Of a DNA stretch of 48,043 bases, positions 41,096-48,043 are shown piece after piece. The stretch spans positions 1 through 48,043 of the IMG/VR virus record IMGVR_UViG_3300020131_000103; one strand, written 5' to 3'. Position 1 is the stretch's first letter. The number at the start of each line of letters is the position of its first letter. The position numbers and the translations under genes were made by a program. The DNA comes from a virus. Below the pieces are notes generated by a model. That model worked only from the letters and a program-made list of their open reading frames with translations. It searched no databases and had not been told where the DNA came from.

Positions 41096-41824
41096 CTACT
41101 CTACCCGCAAACTACCCACGATAAGGCCGAAAACTTCGACATCAGCAGTTTCCTCGACATCTAGAAGAATTGGAGCGTGAGCCGGGTTGGATGACCTAGG
41201 CAAGAGCCAACGACGCTTGTTACTGTCACGGGAGAATTCCTTGATCGTGACCTCTGTGGTGGCGTGACGGTGTCGCAGTACAATTACGCGGTCGCCAGGT
41301 ATTAAGTTGCGATCGACCTCATCGAACGCCACAAAGATCACAAATGATCCGCTGGGGTACAACAGATCCATACTGTCGCCCTGCACCCGCAGCGCCTTGC
41401 GTTGTACGCCGGCAAATCGATCGTCATTGATCGAAAGCAATACGGGAAGCCATTCGTCCCGCGGCCACTCGAAGTGTTCGCGCCAAACGCCTGCTTCGGC
41501 CTGGCCGACGCACCAGACGAGCCGATGGTCGTCTAGCGACTGCATTTGTGGGGCCGTTAAGTCTGAAACGCCCGCCAACATCAAGACCTCCTCGCGTGTG
41601 ATCGGAGGAGACCCTTTCCCAGTCAGAATATCAGCAAGCGCTCGCGCTAAATGCAAGGGCAAGACCGGCTTCGTGAACAAAGCCGGATCCTCGTAGCGCT
41701 GGTAACTCGAGCCTCTTCTTAATCCCACCGCCTTAGCGATCTTCTCCATAGACAACTTCGAACGCTCGCGCAGTTCTTTCAACTGCTGCGTGACGTGACG
41801 GGCGGGAGTGGGCGAGTCAGGCAT
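41096..41824 (-). CDS. CI-like phage repressor (HTH plus S24 autoprotease)
   Basis: A 242-aa protein. The N-terminal HTH covers about residues 10-60 (ARHVTQQLKELRERSKLSMEKIAKAVGLRRGSSYQRYED). Residues 105-240 are the LexA/CI-type S24 domain: cleavage pair Ala111-Gly112 in GQAEAGVW, nucleophile Ser151 in VQGDSM, and general base Lys195 in EVTIKEF. It should repress both early promoters and be inactivated by RecA-stimulated self-cleavage. The start was placed at 41824 after the linker; the frame extends to 41899 through the operator region, which is unlikely to be translated. Confidence 0.92.
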   Translation of the reverse strand: MPDSPTPARHVTQQLKELRERSKLSMEKIAKAVGLRRGSSYQRYEDPALFTKPVLPLHLARALADILTGKGSPPITREEVLMLAGVSDLTAPQMQSLDDHRLVWCVGQAEAGVWREHFEWPRDEWLPVLLSINDDRFAGVQRKALRVQGDSMDLLYPSGSFVIFVAFDEVDRNLIPGDRVIVLRHRHATTEVTIKEFSRDSNKRRWLLPRSSNPAHAPILLDVEETADVEVFGLIVGSLRVE

Positions 41825-41862
41825 GGGCGAAGAGTCGCATTTCACGTATACGCTTTCCACGT

Positions 41863-41891
41863 TTGACGCGTGTACGTTTTTAACGTATAGA
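41863..41891 (+). promoter_or_regulatory. Rightward early promoter with overlapping operator
   Basis: TTGACG (41863-41868), a 17-bp spacer and TATAGA (41886-41891). The perfect inverted repeat TACGTT-TTT-AACGTA (41873-41887) covers the spacer and the start of the -10, so bound repressor would block polymerase. The -10 ends 6 bp before the ATG of the Cro-like gene at 41898, predicting a leaderless or nearly leaderless mRNA. Confidence 0.8.
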
Positions 41892-41897
41892 ATCGCC

Positions 41898-42173
41898 ATG
41901 GTTCACGAGACCCTTTCCCAGGCCGACTACGTGATCAACACCAAACTTGGCGGTGTTGCCGCCACCGCTCGGCTTCTCGGTCATCGCAACAATTCAACTG
42001 TTCAAGGGTGGTTGAAGAGGGGTTTCATCCCGGGTCGTCGACAAGGCGAAGTCCTCATGAAGGCGCGCGAAGCCGGAAGGGATCTGACGAAACAGGATTT
42101 CGTCGTGCATTTGCAAGACGTCGAAGTCAACGCAACGCCTGGTCCGGTTCCGTCGCAGGAGCAAGCCGCTTAG
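41898..42173 (+). CDS. Cro-like regulator
   Basis: A 91-aa protein. Residues 8-45 (ADYVINTKLGGVAATARLLGHRNNSTVQGWLKRGFIPGRRQGEVL) form a YdaS/Cro-type helix-turn-helix in which GGVAATARLLG is the first helix and STVQGWLKRG the recognition helix. It is divergent from the CI-like gene and shares its operator region, the classical immunity-switch layout. It would shut off repressor synthesis in the lytic phase. There is no Shine-Dalgarno sequence, consistent with leaderless translation. Confidence 0.82.
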   Translation: MVHETLSQADYVINTKLGGVAATARLLGHRNNSTVQGWLKRGFIPGRRQGEVLMKAREAGRDLTKQDFVVHLQDVEVNATPGPVPSQEQAA

Positions 42174-42513: not shown

Positions 42514-42589
42514 GGCAGAGTGGAGCAGCGGCTGGCTCGGTTGGTTCATACCCAACAGGTCGTCGGTTCGAATCCGACCTCTGCAACCA
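42514..42589 (+). tRNA. tRNA with CAT anticodon, initiator-like
   Basis: A full 76-nt cloverleaf: acceptor GGCAGAG/CTCTGCA, D stem GAGC/GCTC, anticodon stem GTTGG/CCAAC with loop TTCATAC, variable AGGTC, T arm GTCGG-TTCGAAT-CCGAC, discriminator A and an encoded CCA. Position 1 (G) and 72 (A) do not pair, and 11-24 is A-T, both typical of bacterial initiator tRNAs. Only two of the three consecutive G-C pairs at the base of the anticodon stem are present. It may be a phage initiator-like tRNA, or less likely a lysidine-type Ile tRNA. Confidence 0.9.
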
Positions 42590-42637: not shown

Positions 42638-43339
42638 ATGTTGGACGGGGGAATTGTCATTGGTGCTACGGGGGCGCTCATCGGGGTCGCGCTCCTGCAG
42701 CGCCTTTTTTTTAGCCCCGTGCTCCGAGTCCCTGGTCGACCAAGCCGAGTCCACGGTCTCGGGCCGCGAGTCCAGGGTCTCGACCCTTGGACTCCTCCGT
42801 ATACGACATCGGTCACCAATGACCACGCGGAGTCCACGCCGAGTCCAAGGCGAGTCCGGGGCTCAACCCCTGAAAAAGCACGAAAATCGGCCGCTGTTCG
42901 CACGGTGCAGATGGGTGTCGGCGACCAGGTTCGCAGCTTCGTGGAATGGCTACTTTCGCTCGGTGATGGCCCGCATCGTCTATCCGACAAGCGCGTCCTT
43001 TCGAACTACACGCGCTGGGCGGAAGAGTGGGATGTCGTGCCAGTGCCGCCGTCGATAATCTTAGCTGCCCTTAAGCGGCATCCGCAGGTGCGACACAGTC
43101 GCGACCGCATCCTTGATGCCAGCGGCAAGGCCGTGCGCAACGCGAACAACACGCCGATGCGGGGCAGCTTCTACACGTTCGCGACAAAGCGGCCGGACGC
43201 GAAGCTTCCCGGCAAAGTGCCGGTGCAGACCGGTCTTGAGATCGTCGCGCAGCAGCCCCTTAACGCGCGCCCCGTTGCAAAGGCTGTGAAGCCTGCCGCC
43301 GCGCCCGCGGTCGAACAACCGCGCCGGAGGGCCGCATGA
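42638..43339 (+). CDS. Early phage protein with winged-helix-like C-terminal domain
   Basis: A 233-aa product if started at 42638, which has a strong GAGGGGG ribosome binding site. It begins with a hydrophobic segment (MLDGGIVIGATGALIGVALL). Residues 30-85 are encoded by the GAGTCC repeat array (R-V-x-G heptapeptides). The convincing domain starts near residue 92 (VGDQVRSFVEWLLSLGDGPHRLSDKRVLSNYTRWAEEWDVVPVPPSIILAALKRHPQVRHSRDRILD) and looks like a winged helix of phage replication or regulatory proteins. A terminator hairpin lies inside the 5' part, so initiation at ATG 42911 (142 aa) is a real alternative. It overlaps the next gene by ATGA. Confidence 0.5.
   Translation: MLDGGIVIGATGALIGVALLQRLFFSPVLRVPGRPSRVHGLGPRVQGLDPWTPPYTTSVTNDHAESTPSPRRVRGSTPEKARKSAAVRTVQMGVGDQVRSFVEWLLSLGDGPHRLSDKRVLSNYTRWAEEWDVVPVPPSIILAALKRHPQVRHSRDRILDASGKAVRNANNTPMRGSFYTFATKRPDAKLPGKVPVQTGLEIVAQQPLNARPVAKAVKPAAAPAVEQPRRRAA
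42689..42712 (+). terminator. Terminator-like hairpin with eight T
   Basis: GCGCT (42689-42693) pairs with AGCGC (42699-42703), followed by C and TTTTTTTT (42705-42712). The stem is short but the T run is the longest in the window. It could terminate the tRNA transcript 100 bp after the tRNA. Confidence 0.5.
42726..42857. repeat. Helically phased GAGTCC repeat cluster
   Basis: GAGTCC at 42726, 42747 and 42768 and inverted GGACTC at 42789 are spaced 21 bp. Further copies at 42830, 42841 and 42852 are spaced 11 bp. The first three units share GAGTCC-NN-GGTC. Spacings of 21, 21, 21, 41, 11 and 11 bp place all copies on about one face of the helix. Each contains GANTC, the CcrM methylation sequence of alphaproteobacteria. 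Iterons or operators are likely. Confidence 0.8.
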
Positions 43340-43730: not shown

Positions 43731-43829
43731 ATGTTCGATCTAGGGGACGCAGATCCCACTTCAATCATCGCCGCGATCTTCGCCGTCGTCATCGTGCTAG
43801 CTTTCATCGCGCGGAGCATGCGCGGCTGA
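43731..43829 (+). CDS. Micro membrane protein, 32 aa
   Basis: MFDLGDADPTSIIAAIFAVVIVLAFIARSMRG: an acidic N-terminus, one transmembrane helix (residues 11-27) and a basic end. GGGGGCC lies upstream. Its TGA overlaps the ATG of the replication gene (TGATG), which supports real translation. Function unknown. Confidence 0.5.
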   Translation: MFDLGDADPTSIIAAIFAVVIVLAFIARSMRG

Positions 43830-44827
43830 TGGCAGAGAAATCTACTAAGCGCCGCCGCCAAGTCGAGCGGATCGAGGATTGGGACGACGCGCGCTATTCG
43901 CACGTCCCGCCGCGCGCCGCGCTGGACGCGCGTCTGACTGAGGCGCACTTCCGCGTGCTCGTGCTGATCGGCAAGGTGAACACGCTTCACGGCTGGTGCC
44001 AGCTCTCCCAGACGATCGCTGCCGACTTGTTCGGCATGAAGCGGCAGACCGTGAACGGTGCTGTGTCGGACCTCGTTACGTGGGGCTATGTGGAGCGGCG
44101 CACGCAGAAGCAAACGCGCACGTCGTTTTGTCATTACCGCGTGCTGATCGATCAGCCTGAGGGGGTGTCATCTACGGACGACACTCCTCCTAATGAAGGG
44201 GTGTCATCTACAGGCGACACTCCCCCCGAGGAGGGGGTGTCATCCAAAAATGACACGGGTGTCAGCGCAGGAAATGACACGGGTGTCGGCTCTGGACGAC
44301 ACCCCCCTATATATAACGATCTCGCGCGGGAGATCAGAGATCAGAGATCTCCCCCTAAATCCCCCAATGGGGGACCCAAAGAACAACCTGTTGATGGGAA
44401 GTGGAAGGACGGTGCACTCGCGGAACTTCGTGTCGCGGGCAAGCACCGAGACGCCGTCGAAAATCTGATCGCGCCGCTGCTGGCCTCCGACAAGCGCCTT
44501 TCGCTTGGCAAGGGTGCTGAACGCGTCGAAGCGTTAGCCGAGCTTGCGCAAGCCGCACACGGGCTGCCGAGGCCTGCGGTTCAAGCTGCTCTAAAGCGAA
44601 TGTTGGACAACCCGCAGAAGCTCACGCCGCGCGCAATTCGCGCGGAGATCGACGCTGCGCGACGCGGCGGGGCAATGATCCCTATCCGTCCTGGCACCCC
44701 GCAGTGGTCGCGCTGGCTGGAGCATTTCGCGAGCGTCGATCCGCGTCAGGCCGAAACGATGCGCCGCGTGGACGTTTGGCAAGTGTCCTCGGAATGGCCC
44801 CCTGCAATCGGAAAGGACGCAGCGTGA
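43829..44827 (+). CDS. Phage replication initiator-like protein carrying the origin
   Basis: A 332-aa protein. The N-terminal 100 residues contain a winged HTH (LTEAHFRVLVLIGKVNTLHGWCQLSQTIAADLFGMKRQTVNGAVSDLVTWGYVERR). Residues 112-156 are a repetitive linker (GVSSTDDTPPNE type units) encoded by five DNA iterons. The C-terminal half is helical (KDGALAELRVAGKHRDAVENLIAPLL). The layout of HTH, iteron-encoded linker and C-terminal partner domain parallels lambda O. It would bind its own gene as origin and recruit the helicase machinery; no helicase-loader or helicase gene is visible nearby. Confidence 0.75.
   Translation: MAEKSTKRRRQVERIEDWDDARYSHVPPRAALDARLTEAHFRVLVLIGKVNTLHGWCQLSQTIAADLFGMKRQTVNGAVSDLVTWGYVERRTQKQTRTSFCHYRVLIDQPEGVSSTDDTPPNEGVSSTGDTPPEEGVSSKNDTGVSAGNDTGVGSGRHPPIYNDLAREIRDQRSPPKSPNGGPKEQPVDGKWKDGALAELRVAGKHRDAVENLIAPLLASDKRLSLGKGAERVEALAELAQAAHGLPRPAVQAALKRMLDNPQKLTPRAIRAEIDAARRGGAMIPIRPGTPQWSRWLEHFASVDPRQAETMRRVDVWQVSSEWPPAIGKDAA
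44165..44302. repeat. Five origin-type iterons GTGTC-N10/12-GACAC
   Basis: Inverted-repeat iterons at 44165-44184, 44201-44220, 44237-44256, 44259-44280 and 44283-44302. The first three start 36 bp apart, then 22 and 24 bp. Each has GTGTC and GACAC arms around 10 bases (12 in the fourth). Immediately to the right lies an AT-rich CTATATATAAC tract (44307-44317), unusual in this GC-rich DNA. This is the arrangement of a lambda-type origin inside the initiator gene. Confidence 0.85.
44307..44347. other. AT-rich tract and AGATC repeats beside the iterons (candidate DUE)
   Basis: CTATATATAACGATCT (44307-44322) is followed by AGATCAGAGATCAGAGATC (44331-44349), three 8-bp-spaced GAGATC copies. Position next to the iterons suggests the DNA unwinding element; the GATC-like repeats may bind protein or reflect the coding sequence IRDQRS. 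Confidence 0.55.
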
Positions 44828-47382: not shown

Positions 47383-47691
47383 ATGAAGCTGAGTGAGACA
47401 CCCGAGATCTTCCGACTCCTCGATCGACGGCGAGTGGCGTCGGAGGTCCTTCGCTCGATCAAGGAAGACGAGCAGGCTTTCATTGGCGGCGAAGATGTCG
47501 AGACCGCCATCGTCTTCGAGGCTGGGACGCCTGGCTATGAGGCCGTGCAGGAACTGGCTGAGGCCAAGGTGCTGGCCATCGACGCCGAGCTAAAGGCGAA
47601 AGGGGTTGTCGTTGACCTCATGCCGCATGAATGGCCGGCCAACCGCCGCCTCGGCTCTGCGGCAGACCAGGAGGGCGAAGACGATGAGTGA
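47383..47691 (+). CDS. Hypothetical protein, 102 aa
   Basis: Starts MKLSETPEIFRLLDRRRVASEVLRSIKEDEQAFIGGEDV, after an excellent AAAGGAGAAG ribosome binding site. A helical acidic protein with an alpha/beta centre (TAIVFEAGTPGYEAVQELAEAKVLAIDAELKAKGVVVD) and a disordered acidic end. Not recognised. It is the first gene after the antisense gene and presumably starts a new transcription unit; the TTTAACC...AAAAATAG stretch upstream may hold the promoter. It overlaps the next gene by 8 bp. Confidence 0.55.
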   Translation: MKLSETPEIFRLLDRRRVASEVLRSIKEDEQAFIGGEDVETAIVFEAGTPGYEAVQELAEAKVLAIDAELKAKGVVVDLMPHEWPANRRLGSAADQEGEDDE

Positions 47692-48043
47692 TGAAAACAT
47701 TGCGCTGGGCGGCAACGCGCGCGCCGAGCTAAAGCGCCGTATTGAGCGGCGCCTTGAGAAGATGGACGAGGGCGACGAGGTGAAAGCCGAGATTGCCGAG
47801 TTCAAGCGTGAAGACAAATCAGACGGCTTCACGGAGAAGGTAATCGGCCAGGTCATCAAGGAGAAGCGGAAAGGACCGCAATTCATCCTCGCCCAACACA
47901 CCCTGGAAGCGGAATTGCAAGCCTACCGCGACGCCAATGGTCTGCCGACGACGCTTGAGCAGGCGCAGGCGCATGCCGCCAAAGAGGCCAATAACGTGCC
48001 CGAGCCGAAGACGAAAAAGAAGAACAAGGGGAGGCAGCATTGA
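47684..48043 (+). CDS. GapR/DUF2312-like DNA-binding protein
   Basis: A 119-aa protein. Residues 10-62 (ARAELKRRIERRLEKMDEGDEVKAEIAEFKREDKSDGFTEKVIGQVIKEKRKG) resemble GapR/DUF2312, in which a helix with R-I-E-R-L-E precedes an E-(V/I)-x-x-E-x-K-x-x-G-F motif. A C-terminal helix (LEAELQAYRDANGLPTTLEQAQ) and a basic tail (KTKKKNKG) follow. GapR binds overtwisted DNA ahead of replication forks in alphaproteobacteria; a phage copy may assist its replication. The window ends exactly at its stop codon. Confidence 0.65.
   Translation: MSDENIALGGNARAELKRRIERRLEKMDEGDEVKAEIAEFKREDKSDGFTEKVIGQVIKEKRKGPQFILAQHTLEAELQAYRDANGLPTTLEQAQAHAAKEANNVPEPKTKKKNKGRQH

Follow-up and report, generated by a model that had tools for sequence, protein, structure and literature searches.

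A repeated GAGTCC word within an early phage gene recurs in prophages and islands of the Hyphomicrobiaceae, as a possible iteron-like array of the replication module

The window considered here is the whole of a 48,043-nucleotide stretch of viral DNA (IMG/VR record IMGVR_UViG_3300020131_000103). Its early region includes a CI-like repressor (S24 peptidase; 41096–41899, minus strand), a Cro-like DNA-binding protein that opens the early operon (41808–42173, plus strand), a tRNA-Met (CAT) gene (42514–42589, plus strand), the gene that carries the array (42638–43339, plus strand), and an O-like replication initiation protein (43829–44827, plus strand), which is 65% identical to its counterpart in a related viral contig (L013) and 62% identical to that of an element of Hyphomicrobium sp. 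LHD-15. The array lies approximately 1 kb upstream of the initiator, and its placement between a tRNA and the replication genes, proposed in an earlier sequence-only reading, is correct. A tRNA gene occupies the same position in L013 (2338–2417) with a different identity, that is, Ala (CGC) in place of Met (CAT). Two GAGTC sites (both GAGTCA), 18 bp apart, are also found at 41814–41836, in the region of the cI/cro overlap.

The array gene encodes a protein of 233 amino acids, composed of a hydrophobic segment at the N-terminus, a winged helix at the C-terminus, and, between them, a linker that the array encodes. The hydrophobic segment (42641–42712, plus strand), with a Kyte–Doolittle mean of 1.91 over 19 residues, is probably a membrane helix. 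The winged-helix domain (42887–43186, plus strand), in the order H-E-H-H-E-E, is predicted by AlphaFold2 with a pLDDT above 90 for most of the core residues, and 69 of the 150 residues of the C-terminal model have a pLDDT of at least 90. The protein has no match in Pfam, PHROG, or the PDB sequences, and the weak best matches of the winged-helix domain in Foldseek, which are not significant (E 0.1), include ORC/Cdc6 and the replication terminator protein (RTP), which are winged helices that bind origins and termini.

Within the array (42726–42857), seven GAGTC/GACTC sites fall within 131 bp, as originally described, and a recount of the positions revealed that all seven are GAGTCC, six in the sense orientation and one inverted. 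The GANTC sites start at 42726, 42747, 42768, 42790 (as GACTC), 42830, 42841, and 42852. The first three copies (42726–42731, GAGTCCctGGTC; 42747–42752, GAGTCCacGGTC; 42768–42773, GAGTCCagGGTC; all plus strand) share GAGTCC-NN-GGTC, as had been noted, and are read in the frame that encodes R-V, as is copy 7 (42852–42857, plus strand). Copy 4 (42789–42794, minus strand) reads GGACTC on the plus strand at 42789, while copies 5 (42830–42835) and 6 (42841–42846), both on the plus strand, are read as E-S and P-S-P, respectively. The spacings, previously given as 21, 21, 21, 41, 11, and 11 bp, contained small errors, the true values being 21, 21, 22, 40, 11, and 11 bp.

The window as a whole is depleted in GANTC, with 66 sites against the 226.8 ± 13.5 found in dinucleotide shuffles, that is, 3.4-fold below expectation, and seven of these 66 are concentrated in the 131 bp of the array (42726–42856). 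The rest of the window has 1.23 GANTC per kb, its densest 131 bp contain three sites, and no cluster of seven arose in 20,000 uniform placements of GANTC. The coding constraint does not account for this pattern either, given that a synonymous-codon null of the array gene produced a mean of 0.39 GAGTCC, against six observed, with 0 of 3,000 runs reaching six, and a within-gene codon shuffle produced a mean of 0.74 (P < 0.0002). The cluster described at the outset is, then, real, and stands out both from the rest of the window and from a shuffled-codon expectation.

After the related viral contig L013, the array gene was recovered in five Hyphomicrobiaceae genomes. The initiator led to it in Hyphomicrobium sp. 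LHD-15, where the initiator precedes the array gene, and a profile of the C-terminal domain of the array gene was used next. All five genomes have three to five GAGTCC inside the gene. A search with the DNA motif recovered a diverged array gene in genome G045, which the earlier profile had missed, and a profile that included G045 recovered a second gene in genome G042 (G042b). In this pair, the array is located in the C-terminal tail and not in the linker, and their homology to the other array genes rests on architecture, the position before the initiator, and a weak alignment. The G045 element also encodes a clear GapR homologue, and a GapR-like DNA-binding protein is found in the window at 47606–48040, with a PF10073 score just under the curated cut-off.

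Ten related elements carry the array. One is a viral contig, and the other nine are prophages or small integrated islands of Hyphomicrobiaceae genomes. With that of the window included, there are nine homologous array genes, the others being those of L013 and of seven prophages or islands, and each has three to six GAGTCC in the sense orientation. In the viral contig L013, the layout is that of the window, with four CGAGTCC copies and a different surrounding peptide. Two further arrays, in G094 and G082, are intergenic, with a head-closure gene on one side and a small gene on the other. Downstream of these intergenic GAGTCC arrays (L068:1600–1740 and L072:1600–1760) come an AT-rich peak and a second repeat, present as GCGATCACAATT and as its inverse.

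The phage-like carriers are the window, L013, G038, both elements of G042, G045, and contig 17 of G082, and the island carriers are G001, G054, contig 28 of G082, and G094, which means that G082 has the array in both a phage-like element and an island. The islands, which look satellite-like, contain genes such as those for an initiator, a tape measure, a head-closure protein or terminase small subunit, and, as seen in G001 and G094, an integrase. At the level of the loci, the small islands L014/L027, L025, L206, and L204 combine an initiator or primosomal gene with a tail tape measure and, in part, an integrase, an AlpA-like HTH protein, a head-closure protein, and a terminase small subunit, and resemble phage satellites equipped with tail genes. 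A family of repeated-HTH-like proteins, which are candidates for DNA binding, is found in four islands (L204:12104–12889, L206:8551–9348, L025:9929–10759, and L027:12134–13075).

In 103 genomes of the family, the recognisable non-periodic triple GAGTCC arrays were all within the elements listed above. An order-wide profile search of 397 genomes, in which the best 10 candidates were scored per genome, returned only G001 and one weak match, and an order-wide pattern search returned the G094 array alone, besides other, mostly tandem, repeats. The named phages searched for the array gene or region produced no match. A 27-bp DNA pattern had 11 matches in viral contigs, with no comparable array of the same family, and multi-copy pattern scans of these contigs found mostly tandem coding repeats among the matches listed. 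The array is absent from farther relatives that have the gene (G062, G081, G096, and G097), and G080 is ambiguous. The 10,001 bases around the winged-helix relative of G096 (locus L368; G096:C71:159500–169500) are free of GANTC, and immediately before the winged-helix gene there is one of the GcrA family (PF07750, E 2.6e-31). No paper describing the motif emerged from a literature search for GAGTCC with phage and repeat.

Over 42 copies, the motif is (C)GAGTCC-NN-G, with the leading C in 27 copies and the G at +8 in 37. These copies were collected as exact GAGTCC, so the independent evidence lies only in the flanking positions, the orientation, and the lack of near-variants. A total of 41 of the 42 follow the sense of the gene, copy 4 of the window being the sole antisense case. 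All three reading frames are in use in the nine genes (24, 9, and 6 copies), GAGTCC exceeds the within-gene codon shuffles in all nine (P from below 0.0002 to 0.026), and it ranks first to third in each gene in an unsupervised ranking of hexamer enrichment. Because three frames are used, the synonymous-codon nulls are exceeded, and two islands have intergenic arrays, it is the DNA word, to judge from the sequences, and not the encoded peptide, that is under selection. The relatives retain the letters of GAGTCC in mixed frames as the peptide diverges, which bears out the idea that this is a DNA element rather than a by-product of an R-V-x-G repeat. The spacing, by contrast, is not conserved, given that it ranges irregularly from 11 to 97 bp, with 19–23 bp recurring. 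The proposed helical phasing persists as a weak 10.5-bp signal (R = 0.40, P about 0.01), and strict phasing was rejected.

The array is, therefore, almost certainly a recognition array of some kind, selected at the level of the DNA or the RNA. It represents a clear case, inside a phage gene, of selection on the DNA overriding selection on the protein, with further instances in several phages and small islands, all of one bacterial family. If it is an origin or control array, it would provide a handle on replication and on the relations between phages and satellites in the alphaproteobacteria.

The preferred reading, which is held tentatively and with somewhat less than even confidence, is that the array, lying within coding DNA, serves the replication module as a set of iteron-like recognition sites. 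The motif is conserved, exact, oriented, and independent of frame, and is found in elements with an initiator or primosomal gene. In this view, (C)GAGTCCnnG would be the repeated unit of a directional site used in phage replication, and a sequence-specific protein may bind several copies of it together. The candidate binders are the winged-helix protein, which owes its linker to the array, and the O-like initiator, whose gene follows shortly after the array gene, and the binding would lead, in turn, to an initiation complex or to a replication complex attached to the membrane. The winged helices of the array genes do not form a single clade and the presence of the array tracks no single initiator type, so a host factor may also be the binder. 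The array does sit in the replication region, as noted at the outset, whereas the partition site suggested there found no support, with no ParB-like gene being seen in a non-exhaustive look.

The position of the array is consistent with an origin in most of the phages. It lies upstream of an O-like initiator gene in seven phage-type elements, at 0.26–1.6 kb in the six measured and close by in G042b. In the island of G001, it follows the initiator gene by 0.2 kb, and the other islands, too, carry an initiator or primosomal gene. The direct orientation of the copies and their recurrent 19–23 bp spacings recall iterons, and the weak Foldseek matches to winged helices that bind origins and termini point the same way. 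Against this reading, the array-to-initiator distance is an awkward 2.7–4.0 kb in three islands, the initiator types of the G054 and G094 islands differ, and G062 and G081 have homologous initiator and winged-helix genes with no array. No AT-rich stretch was found beside the nine coding arrays, an AT-rich peak being present, approximately 250 bp downstream, only in the two islands with intergenic arrays, and DnaA boxes near the coding arrays are at about background frequency. It is the lack of regular spacing, of an adjacent AT-rich element, and of DnaA boxes, together with the distances in the three islands, that keeps the confidence in an origin-type array at this tentative level.

The closest parallel is the origin of phage lambda, which lies within the O gene and has four 19-bp iterons (PMC4488673). 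In both cases, direct multi-copy sites are found in the coding DNA of an early replication module, beside or inside the initiator gene. The unit of the array, however, is shorter (9 bp), its spacing is irregular, there is no AT-rich partner beside the coding copies, and it is located in the neighbouring gene of a membrane-type winged helix rather than in that of the O-like initiator, with a binder that is putative. The array also resembles the iteron origins of plasmids in its direct repeats, many of which are about two helical turns apart, but differs from them in its irregular spacing, and neither a Rep iteron unit that matches it nor DnaA boxes were found.

The main rival to an origin, although itself on the unlikely side, is an operator array, in which a transcription factor of the phage or the host would act on GAGTCCnnG and so regulate either the early operon or the initiator gene. 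Autoregulation by the membrane winged-helix protein would be one example. Directional copies in an early gene upstream of the initiator, as in most of the phages, would suit such a role, as would the intergenic arrays of the two islands, which precede a second repeat and an AT-rich, promoter-like stretch, and the repeated-HTH protein encoded nearby in the islands. The copies are non-palindromic, however, and lie mostly within coding sequence instead of a promoter, and the position of the array varies, both before and after the initiator and before and after the winged-helix domain.

Methylation may also be involved. CcrM-type (RAMA) and GcrA proteins are encoded by all ten of the genomes tested that carry relatives, the host of the window being deduced only from these relatives, and each copy can thus be methylated, which makes a phage reading of the host cell cycle directly testable. 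In the improbable event of a methylation-gated site, which would be analogous to the Dam control of phage P1 pac, the CcrM state of the GAGTC cores would set binding, and hence origin firing, packaging, or expression, coupling the element to the host cell cycle. All of the copies are CcrM sites, in genomes that are depleted in GANTC, and the prophage of one relative has a GcrA gene adjoining the winged-helix gene. The same relative, however, has neither the array nor any GANTC in 10 kb, and the selected word is the asymmetric GAGTCCnnG, in fixed orientation, with only one other GANTC in the 1,098 bp of the array spans, so the original reading as a cluster of symmetric CcrM sites is weakened.

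The extended GcrA motif is YGAKTCK (PMC7987155), and the C that follows GAGTC in all 42 copies, which were collected as GAGTCC, falls outside it. The array is thus similar to the GcrA/CcrM-regulated GANTC promoters of the Alphaproteobacteria in its CcrM targets and in the CcrM and GcrA of the hosts of its relatives, but differs in this invariant C, its coding location, its fixed orientation, and the extra G at +8. Given that GANTC as such is not enriched between the copies and that the fixed C departs from the motif, CcrM methylation of the array is plausible but secondary, at most an added layer on present evidence. A broader proposal, in which a control site gated by the cell cycle is common to the phages and the satellite-like Hyphomicrobiaceae islands, with the membrane-anchored winged-helix protein binding GAGTCCnnG in its own gene and CcrM methylation timing replication, is decidedly speculative.

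It is very unlikely that the array is a pac-like packaging signal, recognised by the terminase and common to the phages and satellite-like islands, so that both would be packaged. The pac site of phage P1 is a cluster of hexamers with adenine-methylation (Dam) sites in the coding gene pacA, and is under Dam control; Sternberg and Coulby (1990) is said to be the primary paper. As in this precedent, short sites are grouped within a protein-coding gene, with an adenine-methylation target in each, and both the phage and the island of G082 have it, while in two islands it lies near the gene of a terminase small subunit or head-closure protein. The array gene, however, encodes a winged-helix protein unlike a terminase small subunit, the large terminase gene is roughly 12–24 kb away in the phages (the figure for the window assumes a circular genome), and the terminase types differ among the elements. 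In addition, the site is asymmetric, and the selection is not centred on the methylation target, unlike P1 pac.

An RNA-level element, in which GAGUCCnnG repeats in the mRNA would bind a protein or RNA, is no less improbable, given that the sense-strand bias of the copies is offset by inconsistent structure (z-scores of −3.4 to +0.7 over nine arrays) and the array has no counterpart among the Rfam families. A likeness of CGAGTCC to the T-arm of tRNAs was discarded, with a T two bases before GAGTCC in only five of the 42 copies. An array with no function, arising from an R-V-x-G coding repeat or from simple-repeat expansion, can hardly be entertained, since, even though four window copies encode R-V-x-G and tandem GAGTCC coding repeats are common elsewhere, the peptide repeat is ruled out by the frames, the synonymous nulls, and the intergenic arrays, and the dissimilar flanks and the recurrence in highly diverged genes also contradict it. 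A tandem array of the heptamer GAGTCCA/GAGTCCG is found in an unrelated viral contig (L003:9726–9780).
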